Virus record (IMG/VR): IMGVR_UViG_3300028840_004763
Coordinates: 19,299 to 83,298 of that record
Source of the DNA: a virus
Strand: one strand, 5' to 3'
Length of the DNA: 64,000 bases
Positions 16,401 through 41,413 of the stretch are shown piece by piece. The stretch's first letter is position 1. Every line of letters begins with the position of its first letter. The notes under the pieces are model-generated. The model was not told the DNA's origin and did no database searches. It saw only the letters and a program-made list of their open reading frames with translations. Made by a program: the position numbers and the translations under genes.

Positions 16401-17027
16401 TACACCATCAGCTACAATCCGATCTGCGTGATTGAGACGCCGTTGTTGGATCTCGGCGCTCTCACCTACCAGGACTACGTCTGGTTCGCTGACTACATGC
16501 TCTGGGATCGGATGGAGCACAACGTCATCGGACGCATCGTGACCGTGCCGCTCTTCTTCAATCCGGACATCGGTCGCACCACGCTGGAGTACCGCTCCTC
16601 AATGGACATGGCGGTCTCCAAGCTCTACATCGAGGACGCAGACGGACGCAGGGAGATCTCGACGGCCAACTGGAGGTTCATCGACCCGACCACGGTCGAG
16701 ATGGACGCTTCCCAGTTCGTCGGAGGCGCGGTCTATTACCTGGAGCACGAGGAAATCCGGATGTATCGGCAGAGCGCCTTGACGATCACTTTCGAACACC
16801 GCTCCGGCGTAGATGCGCCGTCGTGCCTGGCAGCCGGCTGGAACACGATCCAGCGCAACGAGAACGTCGACGTGAACCAGAGTCCGGCAGGACACCTGAT
16901 CCATCAGCTGCGCCTGTCGGTGAGCAACATCCGCGATCTGAGCGACTTCAAGATTCGGTCCTTGGTGCTCAAGGGCCTTCACATGTTCGGGAGCAATCCG
17001 GACATACCGGGGTTGACCAATGTATAG
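13437..17027 (+). CDS. Giant beta-rich tail protein
   Basis: A 1196-residue protein, probably a baseplate-to-fibre connector or fibre. The ATG at 13437 is chosen because GGAGG at 13424-13430 is well spaced; a GTG three bases upstream is the alternative. The N-terminal 200 residues include beta strands and a helical segment (DDDWKEAYDDIFIETVTVNG). Residues about 393-482 and 761-853 are two copies of a beta module that also occurs twice in the 18773 gene. The rest is strand-rich with jelly-roll-like segments. The C-terminal 120 residues include VDVNQSPAGHLIHQLRLSVS. It overlaps the lipoprotein gene by 8 bases. Confidence 0.6.
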   Translation: MALEGVNRYAELIKAIPPGPFYDSRGIVVPYRHGNHEVRLETDNPNTTYILYIAGVYSGSVVSDINGNVVFSRHLDRGENEIRLVNSETNNTLISYVTVREYALWLIAYAETFESIDDDWKEAYDDIFIETVTVNGIEGRFGRDIQTYNNIGQSLDDYRWLLHELRLAYRNYGGRFRGFETAVAEFTQIPQFGYSRRLWGPNWTLDQSMLINARWKERSHVVSYNGAGITGVALDRVEADVPSGVAARVIQYDATLDSLRWGTFLTPGPYVPANDGLLFLPGPPSTVPAFILGLAGPFALAAAETTLYIDDGTGTIIVPLVTGWPTPTAAQVVGDINTAMGYALASVYNGKVLLVNPASQPLLEIEHGANNAAVRIFGVEPGNLTFAPNVMNGVTIVSISGSVDVNANSEIAYRYDGSVTPPTRELRWRSPLAAWSPWVSISGDGTYSLIDGFGYTLKVHCYEDDMDVLSGPWPATTSVLFSVGYGKEARQIEQTGGLWVYVDRTQLPAINTFDFVDVFDDASTPGVAELPDNWWLGLPLPTTSTVILESRVVTDKIDLYDPSPAFRVHLQDSGARVHELFSRVLQYPMPRPGPRGQNYPQQSPGLFYDYEGFKAKFSGWVSSTTVGPTTATLSFSFDNGATWVSSAPFPVVQDTGGFWYEDFTYIEFETIIPAGLTDNGVLVAVTIDDPVGIDVMLDSFRVDVEYITSRVLTSNTVVRTRHRQYFGELAWTWSVDPLSLLEKEYIGLPHKRPDKTVPISGVTVTDISMDTDPGNGTVDYEYNSLGDIHRLRWNAPNAAWGPGLGWVSILSAGAYVLPASDGSSMTTLVDYALLPVLDGTPPGATITRSVTITDTTIRQGHVRRISPAHSSIDIFDVTEYNSDNVPINLKGAVTEGDFSSCTLTNLDIHASSPFRYSYLLPNLLPVEDEPLTFSVAAPYVAPLLYDSDQDQEYAMLFEDGILVPNDQWWFNSASEVQVATAYYNSGATYTISYNPICVIETPLLDLGALTYQDYVWFADYMLWDRMEHNVIGRIVTVPLFFNPDIGRTTLEYRSSMDMAVSKLYIEDADGRREISTANWRFIDPTTVEMDASQFVGGAVYYLEHEEIRMYRQSALTITFEHRSGVDAPSCLAAGWNTIQRNENVDVNQSPAGHLIHQLRLSVSNIRDLSDFKIRSLVLKGLHMFGSNPDIPGLTNV

Positions 17028-24093: not shown

Positions 24094-25290
24094 ATGCAGC
24101 TGTATGGAAGTCTGGGAAGGATCGAAAATGTAGTTGTCCCGGTTCTGACTGGGATGCTCACACGAGTACGGGAGCACAAGGAGAAGGTCATGGCGGATGA
24201 TCGTAGGTACAAATGTCCTCTCTGCGACTTCGGAGAGAAGGGCGACAAGACCAAGCGCGCAGTCAACATCCATCTGGGGACGGGCCACAAGGACGTCCCG
24301 AAGGAAGAACGTCCGGCACCTATCGAAGTTGGCGGCGAGTCTCCAGAGATGCCTACGGCTGCGGAACCTGGAACCGAACCTCAACCTCCGACGCAGGAAC
24401 CCCCGGTTCCGGAACGGGAGTCCAAGCCCGTTTCTCCGGAAGACGCCCCACAGCCTCCGAGCGCGGCTCCTCCGTTTCCCCCTCCGGACGCCCCACAGCC
24501 GCACCCGACGAGCATCACGCCGGGATCGGCCCTTCTGCTCAACGGTCCAGCATGGCAACAGAACCCCGCGACCAAGGCGTGGGAGGCTGGTATCGCCGAC
24601 CAGTTGACCGTCCAGGTGCTCAAGAAGGAGTTGTCGACATCGGGGGATGTGGTCCTCATCTGCCGTGCGGAGAAATCCTCGGTTCTGTGGTCCGTCCAGG
24701 AGGAACTCGTTCTGAAGGGGATCGTGAAGCTTCTGTATCTCGCTCCGGGGAAACCTCACATCGAATCGGAGGCCGCGCGCCCGGAAGATGGTCCTCGTAA
24801 CATCTCGGATCCCGAGCACAACTACTTCGAGAAGCAGCGCAAGGCGCAGGAACTGCGGCAACAGCAGGAAGCGGAACGTGAAGATTACGGTACACGTCTC
24901 AGGCGCTATACCGATGCGAATCGCCGCAAGAAGAGCGCTGAGAAGGAGTTCGAAGCGATCCGCGAGGAGGACTACGAGAAGCTCAAGTCCTATGTCAAGA
25001 AGTACGGAGAGCCTTCGGGACCCGGCAAGGACGACTGGATGATTGTCGATTTCGACTACAAGGCTCACATCGTGCGCCGACCCGGCGACAGCGGAGTCAA
25101 GCTCGACACGGAAGTCATCGTCCAGTGGCTGCGTGATCACGACATGGAGGAGTGCTTGAACCACACCCTCAACATCACTGCCTGGGAGACGGCCAAGAAG
25201 GAGGGGAAGGTTCCTGCCGACTTTGTTCGTGAAGTCGAGGAGCCTTACAAGGATGCCGACGACTTCCAGTTCCGTATCGATCCTCTCTGA
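24094..25290 (+). CDS. C2H2 zinc-finger protein with Pro-rich linker
   Basis: A 398-residue protein, unrecognised. A C2H2-type finger lies near residues 41-65 (CPLC then HLGTGH), followed by about 85 Pro/Glu-rich residues. Residues about 250-310 are a charged coiled coil (KAQELRQQQEAEREDY), and there is an acidic C-terminal domain. The start at 24094 has GGAGG well placed; an in-frame ATG at 24190, just before the finger and preceded by AAGGAG, is a strong alternative. It follows a candidate promoter and precedes the exonuclease gene. A DNA-binding role is inferred from the finger alone. Confidence 0.55.
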   Translation: MQLYGSLGRIENVVVPVLTGMLTRVREHKEKVMADDRRYKCPLCDFGEKGDKTKRAVNIHLGTGHKDVPKEERPAPIEVGGESPEMPTAAEPGTEPQPPTQEPPVPERESKPVSPEDAPQPPSAAPPFPPPDAPQPHPTSITPGSALLLNGPAWQQNPATKAWEAGIADQLTVQVLKKELSTSGDVVLICRAEKSSVLWSVQEELVLKGIVKLLYLAPGKPHIESEAARPEDGPRNISDPEHNYFEKQRKAQELRQQQEAEREDYGTRLRRYTDANRRKKSAEKEFEAIREEDYEKLKSYVKKYGEPSGPGKDDWMIVDFDYKAHIVRRPGDSGVKLDTEVIVQWLRDHDMEECLNHTLNITAWETAKKEGKVPADFVREVEEPYKDADDFQFRIDPL

Positions 25291-25326: not shown

Positions 25327-26898
25327 ATGAATGTCGTTCTCCTCATCGACGGGAACCCTCTGCTCTGGCGCGCGGCCTACGCCGGCTACGGAACCGGCGA
25401 CAGCTCTCTGGCGAAAGGGGTCTTGAACTACTTCTACTCGATGATTCACAAGTTCCGACCGCAGGACCTCGTGGTGTGCTGGGACAAGGGAATGTCCTGG
25501 TGGCGCTCGCAGCTCTACCCCGATTACAAGGCTCACCGGATGGAGAAGAAACGGGAGAGCGACATCGATCTGGAGATGGTCCAGGAGCAAGCAGGCTACG
25601 CCAGGAGGTACTTCGAGGCCCTCGGGGTGCGTCAGGTCATCTTGCCTGGCGTCGAGGCTGACGACGTCCTCTCGTGGCTCTCAGAGCACTATCTGAAGCG
25701 CATCGAGCACTTCCCGGATTGGAAGATCGTCATCGCTACCGGGGATCAAGACCTGTGGCAGCTCGTTCGGGAAGATGGGCGCATCCTCATCTGGGATCCT
25801 CAGAAGGAACTTCTAGTAGATCATTCAAAGGTAGTGGAGGTCCTTGGTGTATCTCCGGAACGCATCCCCGATCTGAAGTCGATGATGGGGGATGCTTCGG
25901 ACAATTTGCCGGGGGTGAAGGGGATCGGCCAAAAGATAGGCTCGAAGTTGCTCCGCGAGTACGAGACGTTGGGCAATATCATGAGCCTCGATGAGAACCT
26001 CATCAAGGAACTGAAGAAGCGCAAGACGACGGCGCGGATCCTGGATGCCGATGACGTTCTTGGGGAGACGTACCGTCTTGTGAAGTTGCCCGCTATCCGC
26101 GAAGCCGCGCATTGCCTTTCTTCACAGGACCTGAAGCTTCTTCGAGAGCAGCTCGGGCAACCGCTCGACCGGGATTCCTTCCGACTCCAGGTGATGGCGG
26201 AGCGCATCGGGAAGTCGTGTGCGAACATCGAGCCGTTGGTTCCCACGTCGGCTTCGGATCTGACGGTCATGGTGGATGAAATGGAAGTATATCTATCGAA
26301 TCAGACCTGGACCGATCTTCGAGAGGTCGACTGGGCGATCCTCGGATGCAACCAGTGCGCTCTCCGGGCCGACACGGGCGAGAAGGGGCCGACTCTTCCC
26401 CAAGGTCATCAAGGGGTCGACATCATGCTCGTGGGCCGTAACCCTGGCCAGCAGGAGCTGGAGAACGGTGTTCCGTTCTGGCCGGATGCGCCGGCAGGAG
26501 GTCGGCTCAATCGCTTCTTGGAGGTGGTTGGTCTGGAGCGACACGAGTGCTGGATCACCAACGCGTGCAAGTGCTACTCCCAGGCCAATCGTCCTCCGAC
26601 ATGGCCCGAGGTTTTGGCGTGCTCGCGGTATCTCCGGGCCGAGATTGACCTCGTCAAGCCCAAGCTCATCATCTGTTTCGGTAACGAGGCGATGAGTCTC
26701 GTCACTCCATACCGGAGCCGGGTGACGAAGCACTGCGGCGAGATTCTGGACAAACCCCGCAGTGTGATCGGTGACATCGACGCGCTGGTGGCAATCAGCG
26801 TACATCCGTCGGCGGCGTGTCGGGGTGGTCAGGGAGAATCGAACATGCAGTACGCCGAGACTAACGTCAAGGCCCTCCTGGACAAGGTGACCCAATGA
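25327..26898 (+). CDS. 5'-3' exonuclease (FEN) fused to family-4-like uracil-DNA glycosylase
   Basis: A 523-residue two-domain protein. Residues 1-285 are a FEN/PIN exonuclease: LLIDGNPLLWRAAYA at the N-terminus, GVEADDVLSWL, ATGDQDLWQLV and a helix-hairpin-helix SDNLPGVKGIGQKIGSKLL. Residues about 325-523 look like a family 4 uracil-DNA glycosylase: CNQC (341-344), the active-site-like VGRNPGQQELENGVPF, WITNACKC (Cys416), LACSRYL (Cys432) and SVHPSA (His493). The four Cys positions fit a 4Fe-4S cluster. The family A polymerase at 38305 lacks a 5' nuclease, so this gene supplies it. The next gene overlaps by 4 bases. Confidence 0.8.
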   Translation: MNVVLLIDGNPLLWRAAYAGYGTGDSSLAKGVLNYFYSMIHKFRPQDLVVCWDKGMSWWRSQLYPDYKAHRMEKKRESDIDLEMVQEQAGYARRYFEALGVRQVILPGVEADDVLSWLSEHYLKRIEHFPDWKIVIATGDQDLWQLVREDGRILIWDPQKELLVDHSKVVEVLGVSPERIPDLKSMMGDASDNLPGVKGIGQKIGSKLLREYETLGNIMSLDENLIKELKKRKTTARILDADDVLGETYRLVKLPAIREAAHCLSSQDLKLLREQLGQPLDRDSFRLQVMAERIGKSCANIEPLVPTSASDLTVMVDEMEVYLSNQTWTDLREVDWAILGCNQCALRADTGEKGPTLPQGHQGVDIMLVGRNPGQQELENGVPFWPDAPAGGRLNRFLEVVGLERHECWITNACKCYSQANRPPTWPEVLACSRYLRAEIDLVKPKLIICFGNEAMSLVTPYRSRVTKHCGEILDKPRSVIGDIDALVAISVHPSAACRGGQGESNMQYAETNVKALLDKVTQ

Positions 26899-27842
26899 GC
26901 AAGCGTCTGGAAATCGACCGGAATTCCCCTGGCAACGAAAAGAAGCACTATGACGGCAAGTATCAACCCATCGATTTCATCGAGGACTGGAAGCTGGGCT
27001 TCACCGAGGGCTGCGTGGTCAAGTACGTGTCGCGCCACAAGAAGAAGAACGGCAAGGAGGATGTCAAGAAGACCATCTGGTATCTGAGCGTTCTCAAGGC
27101 GCGGTTCCAGTCGGGGAAGTTCGAGAAGCGCGAGTATCAAGGAGAGATCACGTTCAAGGAGTTCAGCAAAGCGCAGCATCTTGGCATCCTGGAGGACAAC
27201 ATCATCTACTGCATGCTCGATGCACTTCGGTATGGGCGCGAGAGCCGGGTTGACGACGCCATCAACTACGCGGTCGACTTGCTGAGATGTTACGAGACGA
27301 CTGGCGATGTGGTCGACCGGGCCTTCGGAGGTGAGGAGCCGGAGAGCTTGAGGCCCAAGGGTTCCGTGACTCGGCAGCCCTTCAAGTTGATCGAGGATCG
27401 GATCTTCGATGCGAACCCTTCTCCGCGTGGAGCACCCCATCCGAGGCGGTTTCATCTCGACGACGAGCGTGACAGCTATACAGTACGTTTTCAAATCAGC
27501 GGTCAGCACGGCTACTTCACGGTGGGCACCTACGCGGATGGTACTCCAGGTGAGGTGTTCATCCGTCTTGGCAAAGAGGGTGCAGAATCGCACGGTTTCG
27601 CGGACATGTGGGCCATCGCGGTGTCGATGCTGCTCCAGTACGGAGTCGATCCGAAGAAAATCTATGACAAGTTCAAGTTCCAGCAGTTCGAACCTTCCGG
27701 TTTGACCGGTGTGAAGAAGGTGACCTTCTGCAAGTCGATCCCCGACCTGATCATGAAGTGGATGGAACGCCGGTTGCCACCTACCGGAGGTCCGGAAGAC
27801 GATGATTATGGCGACGCCATCGAGGAGATGATCTCTCAATGA
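26895..27842 (+). CDS. DUF3310-TSCPD fusion, nucleotide metabolism
   Basis: A 315-residue protein. Residues about 12-75 match the DUF3310/T7 gp1.7 pattern (KHYDGKYQPIDFIEDW, FTEGCVVKYVSRHKKKNG, EDVKKTIWYL); T7 gp1.7 is a nucleotide kinase. Residues about 190-290 match the TSCPD-type domain at the C-terminus of B12-dependent ribonucleotide reductase (GYFTVGTYADGTPGEVFIRL, KEGAESHGFADMWAIAVSML, FKFQQFEPSG, CKSIPDLIMKWM). No reductase catalytic subunit lies in the window. It overlaps the FEN-UDG gene by 4 bases. Domain recognition is by eye; the fusion is seen directly. Confidence 0.7.
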   Translation: MSKRLEIDRNSPGNEKKHYDGKYQPIDFIEDWKLGFTEGCVVKYVSRHKKKNGKEDVKKTIWYLSVLKARFQSGKFEKREYQGEITFKEFSKAQHLGILEDNIIYCMLDALRYGRESRVDDAINYAVDLLRCYETTGDVVDRAFGGEEPESLRPKGSVTRQPFKLIEDRIFDANPSPRGAPHPRRFHLDDERDSYTVRFQISGQHGYFTVGTYADGTPGEVFIRLGKEGAESHGFADMWAIAVSMLLQYGVDPKKIYDKFKFQQFEPSGLTGVKKVTFCKSIPDLIMKWMERRLPPTGGPEDDDYGDAIEEMISQ

Positions 27843-38304: not shown

Positions 38305-40617
38305 ATGTATTTTTCGGAAACCCAGGTCCCCAAGACGTACCATCTCATCGACAATCCGAAGAAGATCTCGTGGTTGTTTGGCGAGCTTTTGAAAGCTCCG
38401 GAGTTCTCCTTCGACATCGAGACCAACCATCCGACATGGAAGGGTAAGAAGAAGCTGCCTGATGCCTTCGAGGAATGCATCTGCGGCATCTCCTTCGCGT
38501 GGGGGCGCACGCAGGTCACAGAGCCTTGGATTCCAGGTATCGCGGCTTATCTACCGCTCACCGATGCCTATGATCGCCCTTACTGGCCTCACCAGGAGGC
38601 GGTCTTGAACGCGCTCAGAGAGGTCCTGGAGTCTCCGGTTCCCAAGGTTGCGCAGAACGGCAAGTTCGACATCTTCCAGCTGGCGATGCTCAATGATATT
38701 TTCGTCGAGAACTTCGCCTTCGACACGATGCTGGCGCACGCTCTCATCGATGAGGATCGCGTCGTGTGCTCTCATGCCCTCAAGTCCGACTTCGGGCTGA
38801 AGGGTCAGATCCTGAAGCTGGGCATGGCGGATGCCTACCTACGCGCCGAGGCGAGTCTGTTCAAGAGCGATCTCACGGAGGCCCTGGCTTTCTACGACCA
38901 GCACCTGAAGCGATACTCGAAGGTGCCTCTCGACAAGTTGTATCCTTACGGGTGCGCCGACGCCGACCTGACGCTGTCGTTGAAGTTCGTGTTCGAGCCA
39001 AAGGTCGAAGAAGAAGGTATGCTCCCGCTCTTCCGCGAACTAATCATGCCTCTTTCGCACGTCTTGACGGTGATGGAGCTGCACGGAGTTCCGCTCGACA
39101 TTCAGCGAGCGCAGCAGGTTCATCGTGAGCAGGCGGCGATCATGAAGCGCGCACAAGATCAAATTCGCAAGATGCTTGAAAAAAACGATCCTGCTGCTGT
39201 GCATCAACAACCGATGGGGGCGTCCAGGACCAAAAGCAATATCAACGTCGGTTCTCCGCATCAGCTTGGAGAGGCTCTCTTCCGCCCCAAGGCGGAGGGG
39301 GGTCTCGGCCTTCCTGGCCGCAAGAGCAAGGACGGCAAGTGGGTCACCGATGCTGACACCATCAAAGCGCTCGAACATCCGATCAAGGACCACATCCTCG
39401 AATATCGTCGTGCCGAGCAGATCCACGGCCACTACGCCGAAGCCGCTCTGGACAAGATTGTCGAGCGTACAAACGGTGGCACCATCGGCTGGGTTCATCC
39501 TCACTACTGGATGGATAGCGTCACTGGCAGGTTGAAGCTCACCGAGCCTAATCTGACCACGCTGCCTCGGCCCGAGAACGGTGGCATCATCGTCAAGTCG
39601 ATGTGGTGCGCCGACGAGGACCATATCCTCGTCTTCTCCGACTTCTCCCAGATCGAGCTGCGCGTCATCGCCCACGTCTCGCAGGAACCTGTCTGGATCG
39701 AGGGCTTCCTCGCGGGACACGACATGCACTCCGCGATGGCGCACCGTATCTGGAATCTCGATTGCCCGATCGGGGAGGTCAAGAAGAAGTATCCGAAGCA
39801 ACGTTCCGACGCCAAGGCCGTCAACTTCGGAATCGCTTACGGCGAGTCGGAGTTCTCTCTGGCCGAGCGTCTCGGCATCTCCATCGAGGAGGCGCACAAG
39901 TTGATCCACGAGGACTACTTCGGGGCAGCTCCGGTTCTCAAACAGTGGATCGACGACACCCATCAGAACCTCCGGGAGTACGGCGTCTCACGGAACATCT
40001 TCGGGCGTGTGCGTCACCTTCCCGACGCGCAGCTCGTCATTCCGGAGAGCGCTACTTGGCCCAGCCGGGACTCCCGTCCTGTCTGTTATCGGAACGGTCC
40101 TCATCCGAGTAGTGTAGGTCTCACGTTCGAGGAGGCTTTCGAGATAATCTACGGACCTTACGGAGCAGTTGCCCGTTGCAGCCTGAGCGAGTCCCATCTG
40201 AAGGATCTCGTGCAGACCCGACGCAGTTCTGATATCCGTCCGAGCTGTCCTGATTGCGAACATCTCTACTCTTGCTTCGTTAATCGCGAAGTCAAGTACA
40301 TTAGCGGCAAAGTGGGGCGCGCCCTTCGACAGGGAGTGAACCAGCCGATTCAAGGATCCGCCGTCGACATGACGTCCTTGTCGCTGATTGGCATCTACAA
40401 CGATTTCAGGCGCTACGAGGTTGCCGCGTGCCCGATTCTTCACATCCATGACGAGTTAGTGGTGTACTCCCATAAGAGCGCGGTCGAGCAGGTCAAGAAG
40501 ATCATGTACGATAACATGGTCACCAAGATGAAGGCGCGCACCAACTTCTCGATACCGATCTTGATCGATACCGAAGTCGTGCAGCGCTGGTCGGACAAGT
40601 ACAAAGAGGAGGAGTAA
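38305..40617 (+). CDS. Family A DNA polymerase with Cys-rich insertion
   Basis: A 770-residue polymerase without a 5' nuclease. The 3'-5' exonuclease motifs are FDIETNHP, NGKFDIFQ and a YGCADAD segment. Polymerase motif A is SDFSQIELRVIAH, motif B KAVNFGIAYGESEF with Phe at the O-helix position, and motif C ILHIHDELVV. Between the GRVRHLPDA strand and RALRQGVNQPIQGSAVDM is a 75-90-residue insertion (about 580-665) carrying VCYRNG and CPDCEHLYSC, a probable zinc-binding unit absent from standard Pol I. The 5' exonuclease is encoded separately at 25327. Confidence 0.9.
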   Translation: MYFSETQVPKTYHLIDNPKKISWLFGELLKAPEFSFDIETNHPTWKGKKKLPDAFEECICGISFAWGRTQVTEPWIPGIAAYLPLTDAYDRPYWPHQEAVLNALREVLESPVPKVAQNGKFDIFQLAMLNDIFVENFAFDTMLAHALIDEDRVVCSHALKSDFGLKGQILKLGMADAYLRAEASLFKSDLTEALAFYDQHLKRYSKVPLDKLYPYGCADADLTLSLKFVFEPKVEEEGMLPLFRELIMPLSHVLTVMELHGVPLDIQRAQQVHREQAAIMKRAQDQIRKMLEKNDPAAVHQQPMGASRTKSNINVGSPHQLGEALFRPKAEGGLGLPGRKSKDGKWVTDADTIKALEHPIKDHILEYRRAEQIHGHYAEAALDKIVERTNGGTIGWVHPHYWMDSVTGRLKLTEPNLTTLPRPENGGIIVKSMWCADEDHILVFSDFSQIELRVIAHVSQEPVWIEGFLAGHDMHSAMAHRIWNLDCPIGEVKKKYPKQRSDAKAVNFGIAYGESEFSLAERLGISIEEAHKLIHEDYFGAAPVLKQWIDDTHQNLREYGVSRNIFGRVRHLPDAQLVIPESATWPSRDSRPVCYRNGPHPSSVGLTFEEAFEIIYGPYGAVARCSLSESHLKDLVQTRRSSDIRPSCPDCEHLYSCFVNREVKYISGKVGRALRQGVNQPIQGSAVDMTSLSLIGIYNDFRRYEVAACPILHIHDELVVYSHKSAVEQVKKIMYDNMVTKMKARTNFSIPILIDTEVVQRWSDKYKEEE

Positions 40618-40618
40618 G

Positions 40619-41413
40619 ATGCCGACAGAGGATACCCGAGACCAACTCATCGAGAAGTACGGAGAGGATGATATCCTGCGCCGTGGGGTTCTCGATCAGA
40701 AGTTCAAGGTCGTCCTGGATTCCTTGATCCAGGAAAACGACGAACTCGACCGTCTTACCAGGCAGCTGCGTCGCCAGCTCGATGACGCGACCTCCAGGAA
40801 GCGGGATGTGCTCGTCATCCTGGGAACACTGTACTGGCTCGAAGAGAACATCTTCGATACCTCCGTTCTCAAGGAGGCGGTGAGTGGCGTCCTCGACCAG
40901 GACATGCGTTCGTATCGTGGGCTGATGGACCGTCTGGAAGTCCTGCTTTCGTTGACGCCTGCCGAGAAGCGCACCATCGCGCTGCGTGAGAATTTCGAGC
41001 CTCGCGAAGCCGGCAAGTTCTGCGGCGTCGAGGAGCAGAAGCCCGCGTTCTGGTGCCCCGAGTGCAACCTCGGCTTCAGGGACATCGATGACCTCAACCG
41101 GCATGCCAAGTCGAAGTGCAAGTACAAAGGCGAAGAGGCGTTCTACCGGAAGCGGGCCGAGGAAGAGCGCGCCAAGATCGAAGCCGAGGCCTCGTACTGC
41201 GCCGTCTGCGATTATCAGGCGCAGAGTCCCAGCGGCTTGTCTGCCCACAAGCGTGGGAAGGCTCACAAGGAGGCCGAGACGCAGCACTACAAGAAGGCTG
41301 CCAAGATCAGGCGCAAGAACCAGGATTCGATGAGGAAAGCCGGGGTTCCTGTCAGTGAGCCCAGGAAGTCGAAGCCTCGGAAAAGGGCTTCGAAGAAGAA
41401 GGGGAAGAAGTGA
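40619..41413 (+). CDS. Coiled-coil protein with two C2H2-type zinc fingers
   Basis: A 264-residue protein directly after the polymerase, overlapping the next gene by 1 base. Residues about 25-70 form a coiled coil. Residues about 140-165 (FWCPECNLGFRDIDDLNRHA) and 194-219 (YCAVCDYQAQSPSGLSAHKR, ending GKAH) are two C2H2 fingers, the second of U1/zf-met style. The C-terminal 40 residues are strongly basic (KSKPRKRASKKKGKK). This combination suggests DNA or RNA binding, perhaps as a polymerase or nucleoid accessory. No family is recognised. Confidence 0.6.
   Translation: MPTEDTRDQLIEKYGEDDILRRGVLDQKFKVVLDSLIQENDELDRLTRQLRRQLDDATSRKRDVLVILGTLYWLEENIFDTSVLKEAVSGVLDQDMRSYRGLMDRLEVLLSLTPAEKRTIALRENFEPREAGKFCGVEEQKPAFWCPECNLGFRDIDDLNRHAKSKCKYKGEEAFYRKRAEEERAKIEAEASYCAVCDYQAQSPSGLSAHKRGKAHKEAETQHYKKAAKIRRKNQDSMRKAGVPVSEPRKSKPRKRASKKKGKK

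Follow-up and report, generated by a model that had tools for sequence, protein, structure and literature searches.

A flap endonuclease joined to a family-4-like uracil-DNA glycosylase domain in uncultivated large phages

Phage flap endonucleases (FENs) such as T5 D15 and SPO1 gp32.85 (PF02739 and PF01367) are known as separate genes or as the N-terminus of the DNA polymerase PolA. Uracil-DNA glycosylase (UDG) folds have also been found on phage replication enzymes. In Pseudomonas phage PaBG, a UDG forms the N-terminus of PolA (gp205), the FEN being separate (PMC7412058). SPO1 gp31 and the polymerase of Thermus phage phiLo (PDB 9qhs) likewise carry a UDG-like domain, which in 9qhs is recognisable in the N-terminal region by sequence and by fold. 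In these UDG-PolA fusions, the UDG sits on the polymerase, whereas in the gene described here it sits on the FEN. This gene occupies positions 25327..26898 (+) of a 64,000-nucleotide stretch of viral DNA, hereafter the window, which is part of the 83,298-base IMG/VR record IMGVR_UViG_3300028840_004763, and it encodes 523 residues in one open frame. The protein has no PolA domain and is not a UDG-PolA fusion, PolA being encoded by a separate gene; FEN-UDG is a new arrangement within the known joining of UDG folds to phage replication enzymes. We propose, with a probability of roughly 55%, that it is a replication-coupled DNA-maintenance enzyme.

The fused protein and its distribution

All three domains of the protein score above the curated Pfam thresholds. 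The FEN half starts with a PIN-like domain (5_3_exonuc_N, PF02739; residues 4-172, positions 25336..25842, E 1.6e-27) that reaches 96.7 bits against a gathering cut-off of 34.3. It is followed by a helix-three-turn-helix (H3TH)/SAM-fold domain (5_3_exonuc, PF01367; residues 175-254, 25849..26088, E 1.5e-16) with 61 bits against a cut-off of 40. A variable linker (residues 261-330, 26107..26316), which has the lowest identity of the three segments and low predicted local distance difference test (pLDDT) values at residues 325-348, leads to a UDG-superfamily domain that starts at about residue 331 and ends at residue 523 (26317..26895). There, the PF03167 match covers residues 359-508 (E 1.2e-23). 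All these features lie on the + strand. The full-length model has a predicted TM-score (pTM) of 0.63, and as the relative placement of the domains is uncertain in it, no inference was taken from that placement.

As for the FEN half, alignment with 10 homologues shows that nine acidic residues are invariant, D8, D53, E110, D112, D113, D140 and D142 in the N-terminal domain and D189 and D192 in the C-terminal one, and so are R60, K68 and R71. The predicted fold matches those of T5 FEN and Escherichia coli ExoIX in Foldseek searches, and the whole half resembles phage FENs in fold, active-site acids and H3TH. Among named phages, the SPO1-like FENs come closest to it, with about 30% identity. It is thus very likely an active 5' nuclease.

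A preliminary description of this stretch, made from its letters, had placed FEN active-site acids, iron-sulphur (Fe-S) cysteines and an HPSA motif in one continuous reading frame of 523 residues; both the frame and all these residues are indeed there. It had also raised the possibility that two genes had been joined by a sequencing artefact. Two further contigs in IMG/VR, 188.6 and 146.8 kb long and from samples that are perhaps not independent, encode the same protein at 100% identity. One of them (L001) matches the window without a difference along 17,569 bases surrounding the gene, and the other (L002) differs there by one base. As these contigs agree with the window across 17.6 kb and eight homologous fusions occur in other phages, an artefact of assembly or sequencing can be dismissed with near certainty.

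Seven of the homologous loci, from different phages, encode the same fusion with full-length identities of 37-72%. In the eighth, L170, both domains align to the window protein at 29% identity (E 9.6e-64). When viral contigs were scanned with a FEN alignment, 80 loci were obtained, the best four of which (L030-L033) have a fused FEN and UDG in open reading frames of 501-525 residues, the other 76 having no such fusion. Scanning with an alignment of the fusion added L115/L116, L118, L119 and L120, and L170 was found through a scan with UDG domains that share the motif GRNPG described below. No match over 80% of the FEN-UDG protein was found among 50,697 phage records or 72,556 plasmids. In 84,980 prokaryote genomes, searched with two short peptide patterns that distant relatives can escape, only a cyanobacterial PolA matched. 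UDG matches in human-gut ‘phage’ records were on short contigs with bacterial-looking neighbours; these are probably bacterial and were left out of the evidence for phage fusions. We conclude that the fusion is real and conserved in uncultivated large phages. No FEN-UDG fusion was found in the open-access literature, most subscription papers being outside that coverage, and a FEN-UDG protein with GRNPG appears undescribed so far. The earlier remark that no standard fusion of this kind is known therefore holds for FEN-UDG itself, but it needs to be qualified in that the protein belongs to a conserved family and UDG folds were already known on other phage replication proteins.

Both halves are under purifying selection. 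Between the window and L121, the ratio of non-synonymous to synonymous substitution rates (dN/dS) is 0.13 for the FEN, 0.22 for the linker and 0.11 for the UDG, with synonymous sites near saturation. In the close pair L115 and L116, the corresponding values are 0.08, 0.21 and 0.10. The UDG is thus conserved about as well as the FEN, or better, and the linker has the highest dN/dS of the three segments.

Residues and family of the UDG half

The model of the UDG domain (pLDDT 97.1) has UdgX and the family-4 UDGs (UDGa) of Sulfolobus and Thermus as its closest PDB folds in Foldseek searches. Matches to 4zbx, 1ui0, 1ui1 and a UdgX structure have E-values of about 1e-15 to 1e-17, the best being to UdgX, itself an Fe-S UDG. 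Normalised by query length, the TM-scores to the Thermus (1ui0) and Sulfolobus (4zbx) enzymes are about 0.81-0.83. TDG matches less closely (E about 1e-7), and no SMUG entry is present among the top 50 structure matches.

By alignment, the domain also keeps most of the family-4 functional residues. Four cysteines are predicted to bind an Fe-S cluster: the pair C341-x2-C344 (26347..26358; C344 is replaced by Tyr in L033), C416 and C432 (26620..26622). C416 lies in TNACKC (26560..26574) together with N412, the equivalent of the uracil-contacting N80 of Thermus thermophilus (Tth) UDGa (roles from PMC5387724). N421 (26587..26589) corresponds to N89, which positions water; it is Asn in seven of ten homologues, Asp in L115/L116 and Gly in L120. 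E377 and F384 are the counterparts of E47 and F54. H493, in the motif 2 HPSA (26803..26814), corresponds to the leaving-group stabiliser H155, and the His and Pro of this motif are invariant in 10 homologues. The deviation is in motif 1, residues 370-374 (26434..26448), which reads GRNPG in nearly all members, a point absent from the preliminary description. Family 4 has GE(A/G)PG at this place, and GxNPG is found in families 2 and 3 (PMC10359453).

The domain thus agrees with family 4 in fold, in its four predicted Fe-S cysteines, in the motif 2 His and in the motif 3 Asn, and departs from it in motif 1. The window's subgroup also has a two-residue insertion after F384. With the NCBIfam model for family 4 (TIGR00758), the window domain scores 102.4 bits and does not reach the cut-off of 125.3, while L170 reaches 134.5 bits. 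Since motif 1 deviates and the curated score is not reached, we call the domain ‘family-4-like’ and not a member of family 4. The same wording in the preliminary description is borne out by fold and architecture, but not by motif 1 or by the score. Membership of UdgX was considered and rejected: its KRRIH R-loop and GEQPG motif are absent, and the TIGR03914 score is 88.7 bits against 189.95. SMUG and Mug/TDG, which are families 3 and 2, have GMNPG or GINPG as their defining motif. The SMUG combination of GMNPG and HPSPRN is missing from the domain, which has GRNPG and HPSAACRG and has only GxNPG and the HPS of motif 2 in common with SMUG (PMC10359453).

Replication context and possible role

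The fusion gene is part of a replication locus. The order is a large protein, a zinc-finger-like gene, FEN-UDG, a gene for DUF3310 and TSCPD domains, a 141-residue gene, SNF2 and further genes including a DnaB-like helicase, a CHC2 primase and a clamp-like protein. With gaps, this order is common to L110, L111, L112, L116, L118, L119, L120, L121 and L122; the comparison left out the fragment L033, and L170 has a different gene context. L111, L112, L116, L118, L119, L120 and L121 have the fusion in this same locus, together with SNF2 and, where sampled, the genes for the DnaB-like helicase, the primase and the clamp. In every FEN-UDG genome searched, FEN and UDG each give a single match, and the two matches coincide in position. 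A separate family-A polymerase of 770 residues (38305..40617, +), with 3'-5' exonuclease and polymerase domains and neither FEN nor UDG, is present in the window. Related genomes are split likewise, a separate PolA of about 735-771 residues occurring in all FEN-UDG genomes but G007, a 48.5-kb fragment.

Genes of base metabolism provide further hints. ThyX is encoded in six records, including the larger contigs of the window phage (the match being weak in G009). Thymidylate synthase (TS) was not found in the related records searched, and searches for two dUTPase families found none, the control for dUTPase_2 being weak. These absences are tentative since the contigs are probably incomplete. The phage makes dTMP, yet it may have no barrier against dUTP, and ThyX together with the position in a replication operon fits low levels of uracil in the phage's own DNA. 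A phage with uracil-containing DNA is not favoured, because ThyX is encoded, whereas phages that have uracil for thymine are described as devoid of TS/Thy1 (PMC7824862). A 5-hydroxymethyluracil (hmU) phage was also considered, but no corresponding thymidylate-synthase-family gene was found. Nothing speaks for an anti-phage weapon or for the clearance of host uracil-containing DNA suggested earlier; the gene belongs to a replication operon of a phage that encodes ThyX.

We favour a role of the fusion protein in the upkeep of newly made phage DNA. The FEN domain would do the 5'-nuclease work, namely the removal of RNA primers and flaps and of blocked 5' ends, and would thereby supply a function that the phage PolA, with its two domains, cannot. 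In the new DNA, the Fe-S UDG-like domain would recognise uracil, or an aberrant base close to it, and would probably excise it. The tether would place base recognition beside the nuclease responsible for clearing damaged 5' ends, and the phage polymerase and a ligase would then close the gap. Binding of DNA or of a base by the UDG domain seems likely. That this domain excises uracil or a related base is slightly more probable than not, and coupling of the two activities appears to us evenly balanced.

Several observations weigh against this proposal. The family-4 Glu of motif 1 is absent from all members. In Tth UDGa, the E41Q change lowers k2/Km about 900-fold and G42D about 90-fold (PMC5387724). 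Little of motif 1 and nothing of the E47/F54 loop is left in L120 (9986-11443), while the cysteines, the motif 2 His and N372 are kept. AP (apurinic/apyrimidinic) endonucleases of two common families were not found in 11 related contigs, which may be incomplete, and a complete repair pathway would thus need an AP endonuclease of the host. Finally, in one relative, L122, a lone 200-residue UDG with GRNPG is found at the syntenic place, with no FEN match in the 170-kb contig, so that physical coupling is not always needed. Given GRNPG and the score under the family-4 cut-off, uracil excision should not be assumed, and the L120 domain, to judge by its lost motif and loop, probably does not excise uracil. 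Nevertheless, changing both positions of the Tth enzyme to QD costs only about 5-fold, and a paired change in motif 1 therefore need not be inactivating. The Asn at the third position of the motif is the water-positioning residue of family 2 (PMC5387724).

The loss of the Glu might also mean that the UDG-like domain is a non-catalytic part of the replisome that binds DNA or protein, for tethering, processivity or base sensing, and that the FEN alone does chemistry. The survival of the fold, the cysteines and the His in L120 would agree with this, as would the repeated joining of the UDG fold to phage polymerases. There are viral precedents: the vaccinia UDG D4 is a processivity factor (PMC10253040), and in gamma-herpesviruses UNG plays a structural part in the replisome (PMC5934625). 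However, no homologue departs from H493, N412 or N372, and only L120 lacks E377 and F384. A pure scaffold would have no need of residues for catalysis and uracil contact, and the UDG is conserved about as well as the FEN or better. We consider a purely structural role possible but unlikely.

Alternatively, the domain might excise a base other than uracil. The pair GxNPG and HPS resembles that of SMUG, with GINPG in family 2 (PMC10359453), and the motif-1 doublet co-varies with catalysis (PMC5387724). Moreover, Brig1, a protein of the UDG superfamily, removes alpha-glucosyl-hydroxymethylcytosine from the DNA of T-even phages (PMC11078745). Yet none of the families in the cited sources has Arg at the second position of motif 1, where families 2 and 3 carry Ile or Met. 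The uracil-contacting N412 and the stacking F384 are kept, which is compatible with uracil, and no gene of the thymidylate synthase family able to make hmU was found. Another substrate is thus rather improbable, and a replication-coupled enzyme acting on uracil or a closely related base remains our preferred explanation.

Other features of the region were noted in passing. The DUF3310/TSCPD gene (26895..27842, +), in which DUF3310 is fused to a domain known from ribonucleotide reductases, overlaps the end of FEN-UDG, stop codon included, by 4 bases and adjoins it in most homologous loci. The gene upstream (24094-25290) has a C2H2-finger-like segment near its start, seen by eye and with no Pfam match, and C2H2 zinc-finger Pfam matches, unusual for a phage, are found at 40619-41413. 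A tRNA-Gln (CTG) predicted at 16829-16911 on the - strand lies within a long gene of the + strand and is probably a false positive.

UDG folds on phage replication proteins

In a tree of 31 UDG domains, which took in the ten FEN-UDG domains then known, these form a clade with L122 (100/98), in which L122 lies inside. A 38-domain tree, which includes L170, recovers the FEN-UDG clade with 99/86, and with 95/74 after removal of the motif columns. It places L122 beside L119 with moderate support (98/76). As L122 nests within the fusion clade, it likely represents the loss of the FEN from a fused ancestor. Proteins built of ALEYIQNQTPEICMAAVKQNG-type repeats are encoded beside the replication locus of this phage (L122:6594-8549).

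The position of L122 also bears on the idea that neighbouring replication genes were fused passively, for co-expression only and with no functional coupling. The tight gene overlaps in the locus, the lone UDG of L122 at the same place and the adjoining FEN and DnaE-UDG genes of other phages would all be accounted for in this manner. The retention of the fusion in eight lineages besides the window's, at identities as low as 29%, and the apparently later loss of the FEN in L122 argue against it, and we give it little credence.

UDG folds occur on PolA, at either end, and on DnaE in other phages. As far as it was read in UDG-PolA members, motif 1 is of the GE or GQ type, except in L171, which has GRNPG; it is of the GE type in DnaE-UDG and in most UDG-PolA domains. 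In L123 (870-3260), a PolA with exonuclease and polymerase domains is followed by a C-terminal GRNPG UDG, the reverse of the usual UDG-PolA order. DnaE-type polymerases with a C-terminal family-4-like UDG are found in L125, L126, L127, L129, L132, L133 and several of L176-L205; most of the motifs read in them are GE(A/G)PG. Several of these loci, L126, L129, L177, L183 and L186, also have a FEN gene a few kb downstream. The 1353-residue DnaE-UDG of L133 (6464-10525) contains an intein-like insertion (CVSGDTILKR... to ...VTCNSH). There is a general tendency in phages to add the UDG fold to replication proteins, as the UDG-PolA, PolA-UDG and DnaE-UDG fusions show.

It is tempting to speculate that the GRNPG domains represent a new UDG subfamily, with an Fe-S family-4-like scaffold and an Arg-Asn motif 1, and that they form a phage module placed on FEN, on either end of PolA or on its own. 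They would either rely on Asn for catalysis, acting on some base that is not plain uracil, or serve as non-excising base sensors. With the motif included, the 38-domain tree groups all of them (FEN-UDG, PolA-UDG L123, UDG-PolA L171, the lone L179 and L122) with 95/92; with the motif columns removed, the group is no longer recovered, although it is not rejected either (p-AU 0.30). The proposal therefore rests mainly on the motif and on the FEN-UDG core clade, and we make it tentatively, with doubt prevailing.

The change in the active site is the most interesting part of the FEN-UDG finding. The natural replacement of E41-G/A42 by Arg-Asn in motif 1 would allow its effect on UDG specificity to be tested. 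If the two activities are coupled, recognition of an aberrant base and processing of the 5' end would be combined in a single phage polypeptide, and base excision would be joined to the maturation of Okazaki fragments. With UDG folds on phage FEN, PolA and DnaE, it becomes testable whether phage replisomes have base surveillance built in or use the UDG shape as a structural part.
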